A stretch of DNA of 32,506 bases from Desulfobacterales bacterium (GTDB lineage Bacteria; Desulfobacterota; Desulfobacteria; Desulfobacterales; B30-G6). This document shows positions 1 through 12,630 of this stretch, piece after piece; within the stretch, counting starts at the first letter, position 1; each line of letters opens with the position of its first letter. Under the pieces are notes generated by a model. The model did no database searches. It saw only the letters and a list, made by a program, of their open reading frames with translations, and was not told the DNA's origin. Made by a program: the position numbers and the translations under genes. The stretch is taken from NCBI GenBank assembly GCA_029940035.1, contig JAOZRT010000017.1, positions 1 through 32,506 on the forward strand, given 5' to 3'.

Positions 1-1598
1 CAGTTCTCATCATCTCTTTCAGGAAAATCAGATCGATAATCACTAACCCCCCATCTAGTCTCGTTTCTTTTTAACGATGCCCTGGCCGTCATTTCCGCAC
101 AATCAAGAATGAATCGTGCTTCAACGGCTTTGCTTAATTCATGCCAGTCTTCTACTTTCAGACATTCCACATCTTCTTGCCTGAATCTCTTAATCCACTG
201 AAGCGCTGTTGATAATTTTTCAGCGCTTCGGGGTGGTGTTAGATATTCTGTAATAACCGTTCTTAACTTACGTTCAAAATCATTGGGCTTTATGCCGTCA
301 GCTCTTTCCATCTGGGCAAAGATCATCTCAGCCTGTTTCTGGATTGTTTCCTGGTCAATTTTTTTAGTGTTGCCGTCCTTTGCATACTGTACAGCCGATT
401 GACCGGCAATTTCACCAAAAACAAATGCACCTGTAAGGTATTGGTTCGGGACGCAAGCCACATCGCCACAGGCGTATAAGCCTTTAACCATTGTTGACGT
501 ATCAATATCCACCTTGATTCCGGCACTGCCATGACCGGAGCACAAGGCTATTTCTTCAAATCCTACTTCAACAGGTTCTTTTCTTATATCCATTTTCCTT
601 TCCCTGAAGAAACTGATTATGGGATGCTTCCTTTCACTGGCAAACCATACTTCCTCAATTTGCTTTATGGCTTCTTCCGGAAGGTGGCTGAACTTTTCAT
701 ACAGGGTTTGTCCGCTTAAAAGGGCCTGAATGTTATCCTCGTCTGATCCTTCATGAACGTTTACCTCTTCGCCCCTTTCATTTACCATTTTGGTATCAAA
801 ATCTGTGTCATACTCTTTACCCAACGGCACATTCAGCCTTTTGGTTTCTGCAAAATGCTGAACATATTCAAAATTCCTCATCCTGGCGCCGGCACGGTAA
901 GCCATTGAATACCCGTCGCCTGCATTTCCGGGAAAGTCGAACGTACCGTACATATACCCGGATGAGGGCATTCCGAATCTTCCGCAGCCGCCAGATGCCA
1001 ATATAACTGCCTTTGCCGAACATGCGATGAATTTACCCGTTCTGATATTAAAACCACAGGCACCGTAAACCGCGTTGGAATCAGAAAGAAGCGACGTCGT
1101 AATGGTGTGATTTAAAACCGTTATCTTGCGTTTAGCCACTTCACGGGAAAGGATCAGTTTCAGATCAAGCCCTGCCATGGGAATCGTAAACTTATCACCG
1201 GGACAATCGCCGTAAAAAACCGGTGTTCCCACATATTGGCCGGTGTCGTCTTTTTCAAATCCAACCCCCCATTCTTCCAGTTTTTTTAGCATTGCATAGC
1301 TTTTTTCCGCCAGAACATAATGAAGGTCTTCATCAATAACCCCGTGGGTGTGGTCAAGGTCCACGCCTTTTACATAATCTTCAGGGGTTGAGAGTCCGGG
1401 CACAGCCACAACATTGAGCGCATCCATTCCTGTAGCTAAGGTTCCACTTCGCCTTGTGTGTGCTTTCTCAAGTATCGTTATCTTAAGGTTTGGTGCTTCA
1501 TCATGGGCGGCGATGGCAGCCATGCATCCTGCGCTGCCGCCTCCAATGATCAAGACATCTGTTTCTATAATTTGTATCTCAGGTTTATTGATTGGCAT
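1..1598 (-). CDS. AprA/fumarate-reductase-type FAD flavoprotein, C-terminus cut by window edge
   Basis: The reading frame is open from an ATG at 1598 to the left edge (about 532 residues), so the end is missing. It starts with a dinucleotide-binding motif (TDVLIIGGGSAG near residues 13-24), followed by a SGTLATGMDALN segment that resembles the flavin-contact region of adenylylsulfate reductase alpha subunits. A second FAD motif (LYACGDVACVPNQYLTGAF) and a tail with ETRWGVSDYRSDFPE are also typical of the AprA/FrdA superfamily. These are flavoprotein subunits that usually pair with a ferredoxin-like iron-sulfur subunit, which could lie beyond the edge. The start lies 10 bp after the mtbB stop, so the two are probably co-transcribed. 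The link suggests a redox step connected with methylamine use, such as electron supply or amine oxidation; this is inference. It is unlikely to be the main AprA, because its partner genes and the sulfate-reduction context are not visible. Confidence 0.85.
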   Translation of the reverse strand, partial: MPINKPEIQIIETDVLIIGGGSAGCMAAIAAHDEAPNLKITILEKAHTRRSGTLATGMDALNVVAVPGLSTPEDYVKGVDLDHTHGVIDEDLHYVLAEKSYAMLKKLEEWGVGFEKDDTGQYVGTPVFYGDCPGDKFTIPMAGLDLKLILSREVAKRKITVLNHTITTSLLSDSNAVYGACGFNIRTGKFIACSAKAVILASGGCGRFGMPSSGYMYGTFDFPGNAGDGYSMAYRAGARMRNFEYVQHFAETKRLNVPLGKEYDTDFDTKMVNERGEEVNVHEGSDEDNIQALLSGQTLYEKFSHLPEEAIKQIEEVWFASERKHPIISFFRERKMDIRKEPVEVGFEEIALCSGHGSAGIKVDIDTSTMVKGLYACGDVACVPNQYLTGAFVFGEIAGQSAVQYAKDGNTKKIDQETIQKQAEMIFAQMERADGIKPNDFERKLRTVITEYLTPPRSAEKLSTALQWIKRFRQEDVECLKVEDWHELSKAVEARFILDCAEMTARASLKRNETRWGVSDYRSDFPERDDEN

Positions 1599-1608
1599 TT
1601 GTTCTCTT

Positions 1609-3015
1609 TCACTTTTCAAATCGCGACTTGAACCGTTTCACGGAGTTGATCTCAATACCCAACAGATCCGCCACCCTGCTCTTGGCCAGGATGCCTTCCG
1701 GCCCCCCTGCCATGGGTGTGGCAGTTCCGATGCCCATTTCCTTGCGCAAGGGGTGCATGACGTCCTCATCCACCAGGTCCACCACATCCACCCCCAGCTT
1801 ATCAGCCACATATGCCTTAGCATCTGCCAGTTTCATTCTGCGGGCCATCTGCATCCAGGCAACCAGGTCTCCGGCTGTCCGAATTCCGCCCATGCCCGCA
1901 GCAACAATATGCGTTATTGGCATGCCAAAGGGATCCCCCACACCAACCTACAAACCGTCTGCCTTGCCGATAAGGGTTAGTGCCTTGGATACCCGGCTGA
2001 CGCAGTCAATGGGCACCTGCAGGAGCATGGGGATGCCACACACGCCCATGCCCACGTTGGGGTGCACCGGGATGTCAGCCCTTTTGACAGTCTCCGTGAT
2101 CATGGTGAGGGCTTTGGCCAGGTTCCAGGGAAATGATTTGGACGTATCCACATTGATGGCCGGTCCAAAGATATCGGCGCCCACGGATTCGGCAAGCTTC
2201 ACCTGGTCATGGGGGAACAGCCCGGCCAGCTGTTGCCCGTCAAAGGCAATTTCTCCGTGCATACCCAGCACAAATTCACTGGCCATACCGATTATGAGAG
2301 CCATATGCGGGGCATGTTCCTTTAATTGGCGCGCTGCCTCCAGCGTGGCATAAAATTCCGCATCCCCTGAGGATCCCGCTGTATCGAAATTAAAGCCCTC
2401 ACAGCCCATGGCATTGAATTCTTTGCCGATATAAACCATGTCATCGCAGAGTTGAGCAGCAGCTTCCTCCTGGGCGGCCTGAGCCTCTTTTATTTTACCG
2501 GCCGGCATCAGGTCAACCGGATTGGGGAAAGGGCCGTCAGGTTGGAAATACTGCCCCATATTGGGCTGGGACCCATAAAACAAAGGCGCTGTGGTCAACA
2601 AAGAAATCTGGTGATAGGCCTGAAGCTCTACGTCAAGAACAGCTTTAACCGGTTTGAAGCTGTAGTCAGTGTGGCCGATAGAGCCGGTGTCTGCCGCCAA
2701 ACCCCTCTCATATGATAAGACCGATGCCTGACGGCTGATGGAAACACCGCTGCCGCCATCCGCTTCAGTGCCGGAAAAGCATTCAGCCATACCATCGTCG
2801 GTTACGATCAGCTCATGTCCGTGCGGGACACTGACCACCCTTCCCGGTTCAGCGATGATATCAAGCAGGTGCTCGATATCATCGTCCGGCAATGCGGGTA
2901 TTCGCGCCATATCCACAGCATTTTCCGTGCCCTTTTGCAGCTCATCCCTGATTTCAGATAACGACATGTGGACTCTTTCGCCGTCACCCATACGGGTAAG
3001 AATCGTTTTCGGCAT
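1609..3015 (-). CDS. mtbB: Dimethylamine:corrinoid methyltransferase MtbB with in-frame UAG (pyrrolysine)
   Basis: MtbB moves a methyl group from dimethylamine to the cobalt of a cognate corrinoid protein, releasing monomethylamine. The frame from the ATG at 3015 is interrupted once, by UAG at codon 356 (1948-1950), and continues in the same frame to UGA at 1609. Both parts match archaeal MtbB as I recall it: LTRMGDGERV at the start, GHTDYSFKPVKAV, PLFYGSQPNMG, GFNFDTAGSSGD, EFVLGMHG and NVGMGVCGIPML before the UAG, and VGVGDPFGMPITHI and KLGVDVVDLVDEDVM after it. With UAG read as pyrrolysine the product is 468 residues, the usual MtbB length. The start is set by AGGAGG 7 nt upstream; an upstream in-frame TTG at 3075 overlaps the -35 box and is not used. 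It is divergent from the mttB operon and leads the flavoprotein gene. The cognate corrinoid protein and the pyl genes must be elsewhere. Confidence 0.93.
1948..1950 (-). other. In-frame UAG codon, predicted pyrrolysine 356 of MtbB
   Basis: The minus strand reads GAC GGT TTG TAG GTT GGT GTG GGG GAT, that is DGL-UAG-VGVGD. In methanogen MtbB the corresponding stretch is DGI-Pyl-IGVGD (from memory). The codon is in phase with homologous sequence on both sides and no other stop or frameshift occurs. Decoding needs PylS (usually split into PylSn and PylSc in bacteria), PylBCD and tRNA-Pyl(CUA), none of which is in this window. Confidence 0.9.
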
Positions 3016-3210: not shown

Positions 3211-4641
3211 ATGCAGACGGCAAGTCAGTTTCTGTCACCAGAAGAACAGAACATCATACATGACGACAGCTTGAAAATACTGCAAGAGATTGGTGCGCTG
3301 TATCACAGCGACCGCGCTCTGGACATTCTGGCAAAAAACGGTGCCGATGTCGACAGGGATAGCAAAATAGCCAAAATTCCAGAAGATATGGTGGCACAGG
3401 CCCTGAAAACAGCCCCCAAGTCGTTTGTGCTCGGCGCACGCGTGCCGGAAAACGATTTTGCCCTGCCATCCACCTACAGCGGCTATGTACTTGACAACGG
3501 CGGCATCTTCACCCGTGATTTCAAAACCGGCGAACGGCGCAACGCCAACTTTCAAGATCATGTGGATTTTCTAAAGGTTTTTGATGAAATGAAACTGGCC
3601 AAGGTCGTGTGGGGCACCACCGTGCATGAGTTTCCCAACCACTCTTCCGGTGTGCGTACCGATCTGACCTCGTATATCTATTCCTCCCTGCACATCCAGG
3701 ATGAACTGGGCGGACCGGAAGAGGTACCCTATCTCATCGAAGGGCTGGAATCCATCTTAGGGAGTGCCGATGCCGTCAAAGAACGCAAGATTTATTCGGT
3801 GGTGTACTGCACCCTGGCCCCCCTGGTACACGAGGGCCACATGTGCGATGCCTACCTGGATCTGATACAGTACCACCAGCCCATCTGTCTCTTTCCCATG
3901 GCCTGCGCCGGTTCCACCGGCCCGGCCAGCCTCTACAGCAATATTGCCCAGGGTAATGCCGAAGCACTCTCTTCCCTGGTGCTCTTTCAAATGGCTGAGC
4001 CCGGCTGTCCCATCATTTTTGGCGACGCCTCCGGCAGCACTGATTTTGCATCGGGCAACTTTTTAGAAGGATCACCCGAGATGGTTCTGCAATCGGCTGC
4101 CAGGGGCGAGATGGCCCGGTTCTACGGCCTGCCCAACGAACAGGCCGGCTGCCTTACCGAAGCCAAGGAACATGGCCCCCAGGCCATATTGGAGAAAATG
4201 GTCACCACCCTTCCGCTGGCCATGAGCGGTGCCGACCTCATCCAGGGACCCGGTGCCTTGGAGACCAGCAACATGATGACCCTGGAGCAGATCGTGGTGG
4301 ACGACGAGATCGCCTGCTTCTGCAAGCGCATCCGGGACGGCATCGACATGAGCGCGGCCAAAAACTATTATGAAGACATCAAGGAAGTAAAACCAGGCGG
4401 GCATTTTCTGATGCAGCCCAACACGCTTAATGCCTGCCGATCCAGCGAATTCATGATGCCCACCCTGTGCGACCGGGGCGCCTTCGAGCAGTGGGCCGAC
4501 CTGGGTCGCCCTGATATGTATGAACGGGCTAAAGAACGTGTGGAGGAAATCCTGGCCTCACCCCAGAAGAACCCCCTGCCGGATGACGTCATCGGTAAGC
4601 TGGAAGATATTATGCGACGGGCAGACGAGGAACTCAAATGA
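3211..4641 (+). CDS. MttB-superfamily corrinoid methyltransferase 1, no pyrrolysine codon
   Basis: This 476-residue protein belongs to the trimethylamine methyltransferase (MttB) superfamily. Family features include the N-terminal FLSPEEQNIIHDDSLKILQEIG segment, KIPEDMVAQALKTAPKSF, YVLDNGGIFTRD, PMACAGSTGPASLYSN and GPGALETSNMMTLEQIVVDDEI. True MttB has a UAG-encoded pyrrolysine about two thirds along; this gene has no internal stop. Known non-pyrrolysine members demethylate quaternary amines: MtgB glycine betaine, MtpB proline betaine, MtcB carnitine, MtyB gamma-butyrobetaine. A similar role, with methyl transfer to a Co(I) corrinoid protein, is likely, but the substrate is unknown. AAAGGAG lies 6 nt before the ATG. 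The stop overlaps the next start by 4 nt (ATGA), indicating translational coupling. It is the first gene of the operon. Confidence 0.9.
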   Translation: MQTASQFLSPEEQNIIHDDSLKILQEIGALYHSDRALDILAKNGADVDRDSKIAKIPEDMVAQALKTAPKSFVLGARVPENDFALPSTYSGYVLDNGGIFTRDFKTGERRNANFQDHVDFLKVFDEMKLAKVVWGTTVHEFPNHSSGVRTDLTSYIYSSLHIQDELGGPEEVPYLIEGLESILGSADAVKERKIYSVVYCTLAPLVHEGHMCDAYLDLIQYHQPICLFPMACAGSTGPASLYSNIAQGNAEALSSLVLFQMAEPGCPIIFGDASGSTDFASGNFLEGSPEMVLQSAARGEMARFYGLPNEQAGCLTEAKEHGPQAILEKMVTTLPLAMSGADLIQGPGALETSNMMTLEQIVVDDEIACFCKRIRDGIDMSAAKNYYEDIKEVKPGGHFLMQPNTLNACRSSEFMMPTLCDRGAFEQWADLGRPDMYERAKERVEEILASPQKNPLPDDVIGKLEDIMRRADEELK

Positions 4642-6071
4642 AAGCCACCTTTAAGGTGTTGTCGGACGATGAGCGCACCCGCGTTCACGAAGAATCTCTC
4701 AACCTTCTGGGTAAAACAGGCGTACGCGTCGACACGGCATTGGGTCGCAACATTCTAAAAGATGCCGGCGCAGAGGTCGATGCCTCCAGCAACATCGTAC
4801 GCTTTCCCAGACAATTTGTCGAAGACTGTCTGCGAATGGTTCCAAAGGAAGTAACCCTGGGAGCGCGCAAACCCGGGGCGGATCTACCGTTGAACGGTGA
4901 AGACTGTACGCTCTGCCTGGACGGCGAAGGCCCCTTTGTGCTGGACCGTCATTCCGGCAAAAGGCGAAAGGCCACCTACAACGACTGGAAAGAGATCACC
5001 CGGGTTGCCGATGCCCTGGATGAAATCGGCGTGTACTGGTGTCAGGTGGAAGCCGGTAACAAGGGAGAAAAGCTTGGAGAGGCGGTGCAATACCTCTGCG
5101 ATGTACAAAGGTATTTTACAAAACATGTCCAGGACACCATCTTTCACCCGAGTCACGCACCATGGCTCTTTGAAATTCTGCAAATCATCCATGGAAGCAC
5201 GGCCGATATCCAAAAAAACCACCCCATGTCTACCCTGGTTTGCCCCCAGTCACCCCTGATAATCGACCAGGAGTATACGGACGCCTACCTGGCTTTAAAA
5301 GGATTGAACATGCCTGTAGGAATAATGCCCATGCCATTGATGGGGGCAACCGCGCCGGCAAGCATGATTGCCACGATTGTACAGGGCAATTGCGAGGTTC
5401 TGTCCATGCTCTGCCTGATCCAGGCCCACGAACCAGGGGTGCCGGTTATTTATGCCCCGGCACTTGCGCTCATGGATCCGCGGACCGGTGGGCTGAGGAA
5501 TGCCGGTATGCAATATGCTGTCATGGGGGCGGCGGCTACCGAGATGGCCCGCTATTACAACCTTCCGGCCGAATCCTGCCCCGGCGGTTCCGATGCCCAT
5601 CAACTGGACATTCAGATGGGTTTGGAAGGGGCGGCCATGTCTTTGCCCACCATGCTCTCCTGGCCCGACATTATTGTAGGACCGGGCATGCTGGACGGCT
5701 CCATGGTGGCGAGCCTGGAACAGCTTGTCATAGAAGTGGAAATATTCCGGCTGGCCAAGCAGGCCCATCGTGGTGTCGTGACCGATCAACAGAATTGGCT
5801 GGTGGATGTCATCGATGACGTCGGACCTGGCGGCCATTTTCTCAGCGAGTCTTCGACCCTGTCTGCCATCCGAAGCGATGAATGGTATTTGTCCGACCTG
5901 GGATTTCACGGCAGCTTCGAAGACTGGCTTGCTCAAGGAGAAGAACCGCTCGCGGCAACGGTCAATAAAAAACTTGATGACATACTTGCAAGCCATGCGT
6001 CGCTGCCTTTAGACGAATCTGTTGAAAACGAGCTAGATAAAATTTGCAAACGGGCCAGGGCGTGTGCATGA
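4638..6071 (+). CDS. MttB-superfamily corrinoid methyltransferase 2, no pyrrolysine codon
   Basis: This 477-residue MttB homologue is clearly related to, but divergent from, the upstream copy. Shared landmarks are VLSDDERTRVHEESLNLLGKTG, FPRQFVEDCLRMVPKEVTLGARKPG, LDGEGPFVLDRHSGKRR, PMPLMGATAPASMIATIVQGN, CPGGSDAH and GPGMLDGSMVASLEQLVIEVEI. It has no internal UAG and so groups with the non-pyrrolysine, quaternary-amine-type members. Its start overlaps the previous stop (ATGA), so the two are probably made together. Whether they act on different substrates or form a mixed complex cannot be told from sequence. No corrinoid-binding protein, the usual partner, lies next to it. Confidence 0.9.
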   Translation: MKATFKVLSDDERTRVHEESLNLLGKTGVRVDTALGRNILKDAGAEVDASSNIVRFPRQFVEDCLRMVPKEVTLGARKPGADLPLNGEDCTLCLDGEGPFVLDRHSGKRRKATYNDWKEITRVADALDEIGVYWCQVEAGNKGEKLGEAVQYLCDVQRYFTKHVQDTIFHPSHAPWLFEILQIIHGSTADIQKNHPMSTLVCPQSPLIIDQEYTDAYLALKGLNMPVGIMPMPLMGATAPASMIATIVQGNCEVLSMLCLIQAHEPGVPVIYAPALALMDPRTGGLRNAGMQYAVMGAAATEMARYYNLPAESCPGGSDAHQLDIQMGLEGAAMSLPTMLSWPDIIVGPGMLDGSMVASLEQLVIEVEIFRLAKQAHRGVVTDQQNWLVDVIDDVGPGGHFLSESSTLSAIRSDEWYLSDLGFHGSFEDWLAQGEEPLAATVNKKLDDILASHASLPLDESVENELDKICKRARACA

Positions 6072-6128: not shown

Positions 6129-7556
6129 ATGGCCTATCTGAAAACTGTTTTGCTGAGTCAATCAGAAGAAGATCTCATTCATGACCAGAGTGTCGAATGC
6201 TTACGGGATGTCGGTGTCCGGGTGGACAGTGATTCTGTCTTGGACCTTTTAGCCGAAAAAGGTGCTTCCGTTGACACAAAAACGCAAATTGCCAAAATAC
6301 CTGAAAAGATGATCAACGAGGCGCTCAAGGCTGCCCCGAAACAGATCACGCTCTATGGCCGGGACCCAAAAAACAATCTTGAACTTCCGGTAGAGGCGTA
6401 TCCATATTCAGTCACCAATGGGACATCTGTATTTGTAAGGGACAAGGATACCAATGAATACCGTGACAGCACCAGCCAGGATGTGGCCGACATTGCCAAA
6501 CTGGTGGACGGACTAGACGGCATTGATTTTCAATGGCCCTCACTTTCTGCCAAAGACATGCCGCCGCATGCGCAGACACTCTACGAACTCTGGATAACCC
6601 TTGAAAACTCATCCAAGCATTTCCAGGGTGATGCCATTCATGGGGCCCATAACGCCCAGGCCCAGATAGATATGGCCGCATTGGTTGTCGGCGGGAGGGA
6701 GGAACTTAAAAAACGACCGATTATTTCCATGATCGTCTGCCCTCTTGCCCCGCTCTATTTTGAAAAAGGCGCCATCGAATCCCAGGTGGCATTTGCCCGT
6801 GCCGGAATCCCGGTAGTTTCTTACTCCATGTCGATCGGTGGTCTTTCGTCTCCCATAACGGTCGCTGGAATGATGCTGAACGCCAATGCCGAAAACCTGG
6901 CCAGCCTCGTGATTACCCAGGCCGCGGCACCAGGCGCTCCCCATATTTATGGATCAGATTCAACGCCCATGGATATGGCTACCGGCAATATCAATTATGA
7001 TGCAGCTGAACTGGGACTGGTGGCTTGTGGACTGTCACAGATGTCAAAGCGTTACAAATTGCCCTCTTTTAACGGCGGCTTCAACGGCTTCAGTGTTGTC
7101 GGCGATTATAATGAAACAATTTTTGAAATGTTGTCAGGCTGCATTGCATCCATTTGCCACACCGATATCACAGGTGGTCTCGGATGTATCGATGACGCCA
7201 AAGGCATTTGTTTCAAACAGATGCTGGTTGATGCTTACACCTGGGAGTGCTGTCGTGAATACATGAAACCCATAGAAATCACGAAAGAGCGGCTCGGTCT
7301 CGATGCCATAAAAAATGTCGGCCCCAAGGGCAATTTCCTGGTTGAACCGCACACACTCAGATATCTCAGAAATGAGCCCATCATGTGGGATGAGGAAAAA
7401 TTTGCATTGCTTACCAAGGATAAAGATGCGCTCCTCCAGGCTGCCGGAAAAATCGTCAACAGCATTCTCGATGAGCACGAAGTCGTTCCCGTGGATGAAG
7501 CCATCCTCAAACAAGGCTATGATATAATTCATGCATACGAAACAAAATATGCTTAA
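6129..7556 (+). CDS. MttB-superfamily corrinoid methyltransferase 3, divergent, no pyrrolysine codon
   Basis: This 475-residue MttB homologue has the usual N-terminal block (LLSQSEEDLIHDQSVECLRDVG, KIPEKMINEALKAAPKQITLYGRDP), SMSIGGLSSPITVAGMMLNAN and a C-terminal GPKGNFLVEPHTLR that matches GPGGHFL in the two upstream copies. In the region where those copies have GPGxLxxSxxxxLEQxV, this protein has GGLGCIDDAKGICFKQMLVD. This suggests a changed active-site lining and probably a different substrate. It has no internal UAG. The start at 6129 follows GAGGA with suitable spacing, 57 nt after the previous stop. It lies in the same operon and directly precedes the GcvT-like gene. Confidence 0.88.
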   Translation: MAYLKTVLLSQSEEDLIHDQSVECLRDVGVRVDSDSVLDLLAEKGASVDTKTQIAKIPEKMINEALKAAPKQITLYGRDPKNNLELPVEAYPYSVTNGTSVFVRDKDTNEYRDSTSQDVADIAKLVDGLDGIDFQWPSLSAKDMPPHAQTLYELWITLENSSKHFQGDAIHGAHNAQAQIDMAALVVGGREELKKRPIISMIVCPLAPLYFEKGAIESQVAFARAGIPVVSYSMSIGGLSSPITVAGMMLNANAENLASLVITQAAAPGAPHIYGSDSTPMDMATGNINYDAAELGLVACGLSQMSKRYKLPSFNGGFNGFSVVGDYNETIFEMLSGCIASICHTDITGGLGCIDDAKGICFKQMLVDAYTWECCREYMKPIEITKERLGLDAIKNVGPKGNFLVEPHTLRYLRNEPIMWDEEKFALLTKDKDALLQAAGKIVNSILDEHEVVPVDEAILKQGYDIIHAYETKYA

Positions 7557-12429: not shown

Positions 12430-12630
12430 ATGAAAACACAATGCCGGTTTTTATCCGAAGACGAGCAATTGAAGATCCATGAGAGAAGTATCAAGATACT
12501 GGAAGAGGTGGGCGTAAAATTTTTAAGCGAAAAAGCCCTGAAAATTATGGAAAAGAATGGTGCCAGCGTCGACAAAAAAGAAAAGTTGGCTAAAATTCCC
12601 CGGGAGATGGTGGACCAGGCCCTATCGTAG
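12430..12630 (+). pseudogene. Truncated MttB-superfamily gene (N-terminal 66 residues only)
   Basis: The 66-residue product matches the N-terminus of the MttB homologues at 3211 and 6129: CRFLSEDEQLKIHERSIKIL, EEVGVKF, LKIMEKNGASVD and KIPREMVDQAL. It ends at UAG exactly where its relatives go on with KTAPKSFVLGARVP. The UAG is not a pyrrolysine site: the frame beyond reads RYCN and hits a second UAG, with no homology to the family. About 410 residues are lost, and only 55 bp remain before the next gene. This is most likely the remnant of a fourth mttB homologue deleted during evolution of the operon. An expressed small peptide is less likely; the ribosome-binding site is weak. Confidence 0.8.

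Follow-up and report, generated by a model that had tools for sequence, protein, structure and literature searches.

The locus described here raises the question of whether an mtbB gene interrupted by an in-frame TAG is a broken gene or a working one and, in the latter case, how the cell tells this UAG from a true stop. The window analyzed is a 32,506-nucleotide stretch of a Desulfobacterales genome (GCA_029940035.1, contig JAOZRT010000017.1). The features around the TAG are:

1609-3015, minus strand: mtbB, 468 residues with pyrrolysine (Pyl) at 356, assigned by TIGR02368, PF09505 and the sequence
1609-1611 and 3013-3015, minus strand: terminal stop TGA and start ATG of mtbB, the start preceded by AGGAGG
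1948-1950, minus strand: in-frame TAG, mtbB codon 356, assigned as a pyrrolysine codon from the family site and the pyl set
3-1619, minus strand: fumarate reductase/succinate dehydrogenase-like flavoprotein frame, downstream of mtbB, running off the contig
3211-4641, 4638-6071 and 6129-7556, plus strand: three MttB-superfamily genes without TAG, TIGR02369 below cut-off

The initial annotation had joined two apparent gene pieces into one MtbB frame and placed the UAG at the pyrrolysine site of the family. Both claims were borne out. With the TAG taken as a residue, the minus strand reads as a single 468-residue frame, uninterrupted apart from that codon (context DGL-O-VGVGD), and its product gave full-length matches to TIGR02368 (497 bits, cut-off 369, residues 7-464 of 468) and PF09505 (612.7 bits, cut-off 25). 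The coordinates and the codon number, 356, were correct, and of 61 non-redundant MtbB genes, 60 have TAG here and one has TCG. In an AlphaFold2 model (mean pLDDT 90.9), residue 356 falls in a strand with seven helices C-terminal to it, and a 355-residue product would therefore be predicted to miss part of the fold. A fold search returned weak TIM-barrel matches, including MetH and BHMT; a sequence search found no solved MtbB chain.

At the Pyl position, the three neighboring MttB-superfamily genes encode Leu (CTT), Gly (GGT) and Asn (AAC). No corrinoid gene was recognized in the window around mtbB, and no MtbB relatives were found in plasmids and viral contigs. A short MttB-family remnant, corresponding to the N-terminal region of the gene, is also present in the window (12445-12630).

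Comparison with the three closest orthologues gave identities of 0.80-0.87 after the TAG versus 0.81-0.85 before it, and a dN/dS of 0.08-0.13 downstream of it, indicating that protein selection persists past the TAG. Two unusual copies were seen among the relatives. One, from the genus (L065:2163-3533, G001:C365), is a full-length MtbB with Ser (TCG) replacing Pyl, either a natural loss of Pyl or an assembly error; Pyl may thus not be needed in every copy. The other (L047:3001-4377) has a TGA at alignment position 341 in addition to the TAG at 356, and the TGA could reflect decay, error or another recoded codon.

The assembly (5.17 Mb in 581 contigs, 99.86% complete, 4.78% contaminated) was searched for pyl genes and a tRNA-Pyl, a test set beforehand, and the complete set was found on a contig separate from the window (C433). 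Its gene order (L016) is two TAG-bearing mtbB genes, an mtbC-like gene, tRNA-Pyl(CTA), pylSc, pylB, pylC, pylD and pylSn. The tRNA, with anticodon CUA, was identified by ARAGORN at C433:4726-4799, and pylSc, pylB, pylC and pylD all scored above curated cut-offs. The MtbC-like corrinoid protein, at 198 bits, fell short of the cut-off for MtbC (350). The initial annotation had further held that the organism makes and inserts pyrrolysine; the gene set and the tRNA-Pyl(CUA) found here support this, and actual insertion is what they would imply.

A binning accident does not account for the pairing of window and pyl cassette, since G002, a relative from the genus with 95% completeness and 1% contamination, encodes PylSn and an MtbB orthologue of 85% identity in a similar neighborhood, with MttB homologues, an Lrp-like regulator, a saccharopine dehydrogenase-like gene and others conserved. 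A survey of 58 genomes across genus, family and order found MtbB and PylSn together in 7, PylSn alone in 1 and neither in 50, so that all seven MtbB-bearing genomes also have PylSn. In the genome itself there are ten copies of MtbB, each carrying one TAG, always at the Pyl site, together with about ten MttB genes that have a TAG, three of which are partial. These numbers are upper estimates, because one contig with a Pyl-MtbB and a Pyl-MttB (C441, L020) may be foreign to the bin (GC 0.415, tetranucleotide r 0.60 to the window). Over 30 MttB-family matches in the same genome lack the TAG. Large MtbB expansions recur in the order: another Desulfobacterales genome (G004, JAIPEE contigs) has twelve MtbB matches. 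Desulfocicer vacuolatum, a Pyl-using member of the Desulfobacterales, likewise encodes an MtbB of this type (L038). The only MtmB-family gene found (L069:6598-7944, G000:C559) has no in-frame stop; MtqB, a non-Pyl MtmB homologue, was recently shown to be active on tetramethylammonium and choline (PMC13044021).

TAG is also a common stop in this genome, ending 106 of 423 long ORFs (25%) in a 638 kb sample, where it makes up 16% of stop trinucleotides. This frequency would suit a reading of codon 356 as an ordinary stop and of the gene as a pseudogene or a source of truncated product. We regard that reading as extremely improbable in view of the TAG at the family site in 60/61 genes, the dN/dS of 0.08-0.13 beyond it and the pyl set. 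Further readthrough genes are not claimed: 7 of 24 long TAG extensions belonged to genes other than MtbB or MttB, no more than for TAA or TGA. As UAG is a common true stop, it has not been reassigned, and the cell must distinguish its Pyl codons from its stops.

We conclude that the window gene is almost certainly a working Pyl-containing MtbB. The split synthetase PylSn/PylSc would charge tRNA-Pyl(CUA), which would place pyrrolysine at UAG 356, within the active site of a methyltransferase with a TIM-barrel fold. MtbB would then move a methyl group from dimethylamine, the substrate expected from the family, to a corrinoid protein (the MtbC homologue on C433), from where it would probably pass to folate and the reverse Wood-Ljungdahl pathway. 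A refinement of this scheme, not opposed to it, is that UAG 356 encodes Pyl on methylamines and is a stop otherwise, as Prat et al. 2012 (cited in PMC8211752) reported for Acetohalobium arabaticum; we consider this quite possible, at somewhat less than an even chance.

The strongest feature of the locus, absent from the initial annotation, lies downstream of the UAG. Positions within it are numbered with the U of UAG as 1:

1852-1885, minus strand: RNA hairpin, nucleotides 66-99, identified by covariation and whole-gene rank
1951-1953, minus strand: codon 355 TTG (Leu), just before the UAG, synonymously conserved in 57/61 genes (z 5.8 relative to the scored codons of mtbB)

The hairpin consists of stems 66-72/93-99 and 74-80/85-91, an A-C mismatch at 73-92 and a tetraloop AGAY. 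In the window, 14 comparative pairs surround the one mismatch and the loop is AGAC, which is AGAU in most relatives. Across the 61 MtbB genes, a set that takes in MAGs labelled Spirochaetes, Phycisphaerales and Fermentibacteria (L027, L037, L045), the hairpin lies 63-96 nt beyond the UAG and the AG start of the tetraloop is invariant. Synonymous conservation in the 61 codon-aligned genes peaks at codons 382 (GGA, 61/61), 384 (CTG, 57/61), 355 and 383; codons 381-384 fall 73-84 nt after the UAG.

Pairing excess was concentrated on one antidiagonal, with pairs 75-90, 69-96 and 72-93 ranking first, second and sixth of 1,439 variable column pairs in a 108-nt region. Gene-wide, the 34-nt hairpin ranked first of 1,317 windows, with a mean pairing of 0.85 (next 0.70) and a summed excess of 1.03 (next 0.79). 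Pair 75-90 was third of 38,534 column pairs over the gene; since single pairs elsewhere are similar in excess, our claim rests on the whole helix.

Several pairs join invariant first or second codon positions, which alone prove nothing, so the hairpin might be viewed as a by-product of protein conservation or as a DNA palindrome. Pair 75-90 speaks against the former, as it links two wobble positions. On the protein tree it underwent 36 inferred changes, of which 28 kept pairing, 17 as double compensatory changes and 11 as single ones; the kept fraction of 0.78 compares with a mean of 0.12 and a maximum of 0.55 for 598 control wobble pairs. In an independent count over 32 genes, 33 cells changed on both sides versus 8.3 in shuffles (0/500 as high), and slid structures gave 0-7. 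The same pair showed G-U 19 times and A-C never, which fits sense-strand RNA and not a DNA palindrome. Either version of this alternative is, in our judgment, very unlikely.

Folding gave a consistent picture once the hairpin itself was tested. The window sequence alone folds into the predicted structure except for the outermost pair (-15.4 kcal/mol), and in 97% of 60-odd genes the hairpin is stabler than synonymous shuffles (mean z -1.65, sem 0.13). The signal does not emerge from the surrounding 100-102 nt region: the 100 nt after the window UAG were of ordinary stability (z 0.26), and 102-nt segments of 39 genes gave a mean z of -0.17 against synonymous shuffles. RNAalifold recovered just four pairs of the mtbB hairpin.

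A second hairpin was found in mttB. Of the eight codons with the strongest synonymous conservation in 37 TAG-bearing MttB genes, three are +23 TTG, +24 GCA and +26 GCC, and the hairpin with the best pairing anywhere in the gene begins at +65. Its form is A/G69-UUGGC[AGGN]GCCAA-U/C84, at nearly the same distance from the UAG as in mtbB, and of 9 changes at pair 69-84, 4 are double. Five or more of the six pairs in this hairpin form in 30/37 Pyl genes versus 2/42 non-Pyl paralogues (Fisher p 8e-13, a value that ignores kinship; the Pyl-MttB genes are probably one clade). A hairpin with an AG loop and six pairs or more at +45 to +110 occurs in 30/37 Pyl-MttB genes versus 0/42 non-Pyl MttB genes, and six pairs were reached in 1 of 358 control coding windows. 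The 15-mer TTGGCAGGNGCCAAY occurs seven times genome-wide, each time in a TAG-bearing MttB gene and never reversed. In a sample of 110 TAG-ended ORFs, 13 others had at least six pairs, only one of them neither MtbB nor MttB; at ordinary UAG stops such hairpins are seldom seen.

On these comparative data, it is well supported that the two hairpins are RNA structures tied to Pyl genes in this sample. A role in Pyl decoding, for which we see about even odds, would mean that the hairpin favors decoding over termination. We propose, at slightly less than an even chance, that bacteria mark Pyl UAGs with a cis hairpin located about 60-95 nt downstream, whose tetraloop starts with AG. It would have arisen independently in mtbB and mttB, be read by some factor or by the ribosome, and set Pyl codons apart from the many true UAG stops.

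The structures may instead be real but serve another role, for example in mRNA stability or in pausing translation to assist folding. A strong hairpin is missing from some Pyl genes: 7 of the 37 MttB genes form fewer than 5 of 6 pairs, and two of the genome's own MtbB copies have only four pairs in a row. In L065, the copy with Ser, the upper stem is retained but the hairpin is no stabler than synonymous shuffles. According to reviews (PMC8211752), E. coli can express archaeal Pyl genes without a cis element, and 63-96 nt from the UAG is far for direct action on the decoding ribosome. What weighs on the other side is the recurrence in two gene families, at almost equal distance from the UAG, of a hairpin whose tetraloop starts with AG, together with its distribution: the split of 30/37 against 0/42 between Pyl and non-Pyl MttB, and its rarity at ordinary stops. 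We give such another role a somewhat lower than even chance. A search of the pyl cluster for a gene that could bind the hairpin turned up, after pylSn, a 412-residue frame that had no family match and looks, by its sequence, like an outer-membrane protein.

As UAG ends about one quarter of the sampled ORFs, a mark that told Pyl codons and stops apart would be of consequence, and the proposed hairpin mark could be the missing signal for which stop codons to read through. The comparative data give a precise element with exact pairs and exact synonymous changes, which makes it directly testable; if confirmed, the hairpin would aid the finding of Pyl genes and improve Pyl insertion.

Like the bacterial SECIS element, the hairpins described here are part of the coding sequence and follow a recoded stop. 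SECIS comes directly after UGA and is bound by SelB; the present hairpins, in contrast, stand about 60-95 nt from the stop and have no known binder.

Closer counterparts are the PYLIS families of Rfam, one of which overlaps the mtbB hairpin and models part of it:

1851-1950, minus strand: Rfam PYLIS_2 (RF02509) match, 82.9 bits (gathering 36)

PYLIS_2, the mtbB family, shares pairs 73-77/88-92 and 79-80/85-86 with the hairpin and has neither pair 78-87 nor the lower stem 66-72/93-99; this comparison with archaeal MtbB rests on the Rfam consensus lines. Its pair 75-90 is strongly supported in the present genes, while its pair 73-92 is A-C in most of the bacterial genes and unpaired in 82%. The first stem of PYLIS_2 (7-38) showed no covariation and no excess pairing in these 61 bacterial MtbB genes. 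For mttB, the 2013 study behind the PYLIS-like structures found none (Have et al. 2013, PMC3639795). Rfam PYLIS_3 (RF02510, mttB) covers the same 100-nt region of Pyl-MttB as the mttB hairpin; its structure lacks the UUGGC[AGGN]GCCAA hairpin, and its consensus sequence is unable to form it.

In marine Deltaproteobacteria, the parts of Kivenson et al. 2021 (PMC8318568) covered here describe Pyl-MttB and Pyl-MtbB with pyl genes as an expansion of a dual Pyl/Sec code, and propose a link to the reverse Wood-Ljungdahl pathway. Our genome belongs to the same broad group and shares the metabolism, both Pyl enzymes and the pyl genes. Those parts make no mention of the hairpin. It looks new, with the proviso that priority is not proven, as subscription literature lay mostly outside the search. 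Kivenson et al. give up to five Pyl-MttB copies per genome, compared with about ten TAG-bearing MttB and ten TAG-bearing MtbB genes here. The class of Pyl-MtbB is already known, and the window gene adds a paralogue to it. With the MtbB of Methanosarcina and marine Deltaproteobacteria (TIGR02368, PF09505) it shares the full-length match, the TAG at the family site and the pyl set; it differs in being one of ten paralogues and in its place between non-Pyl MttB genes and a flavoprotein gene.
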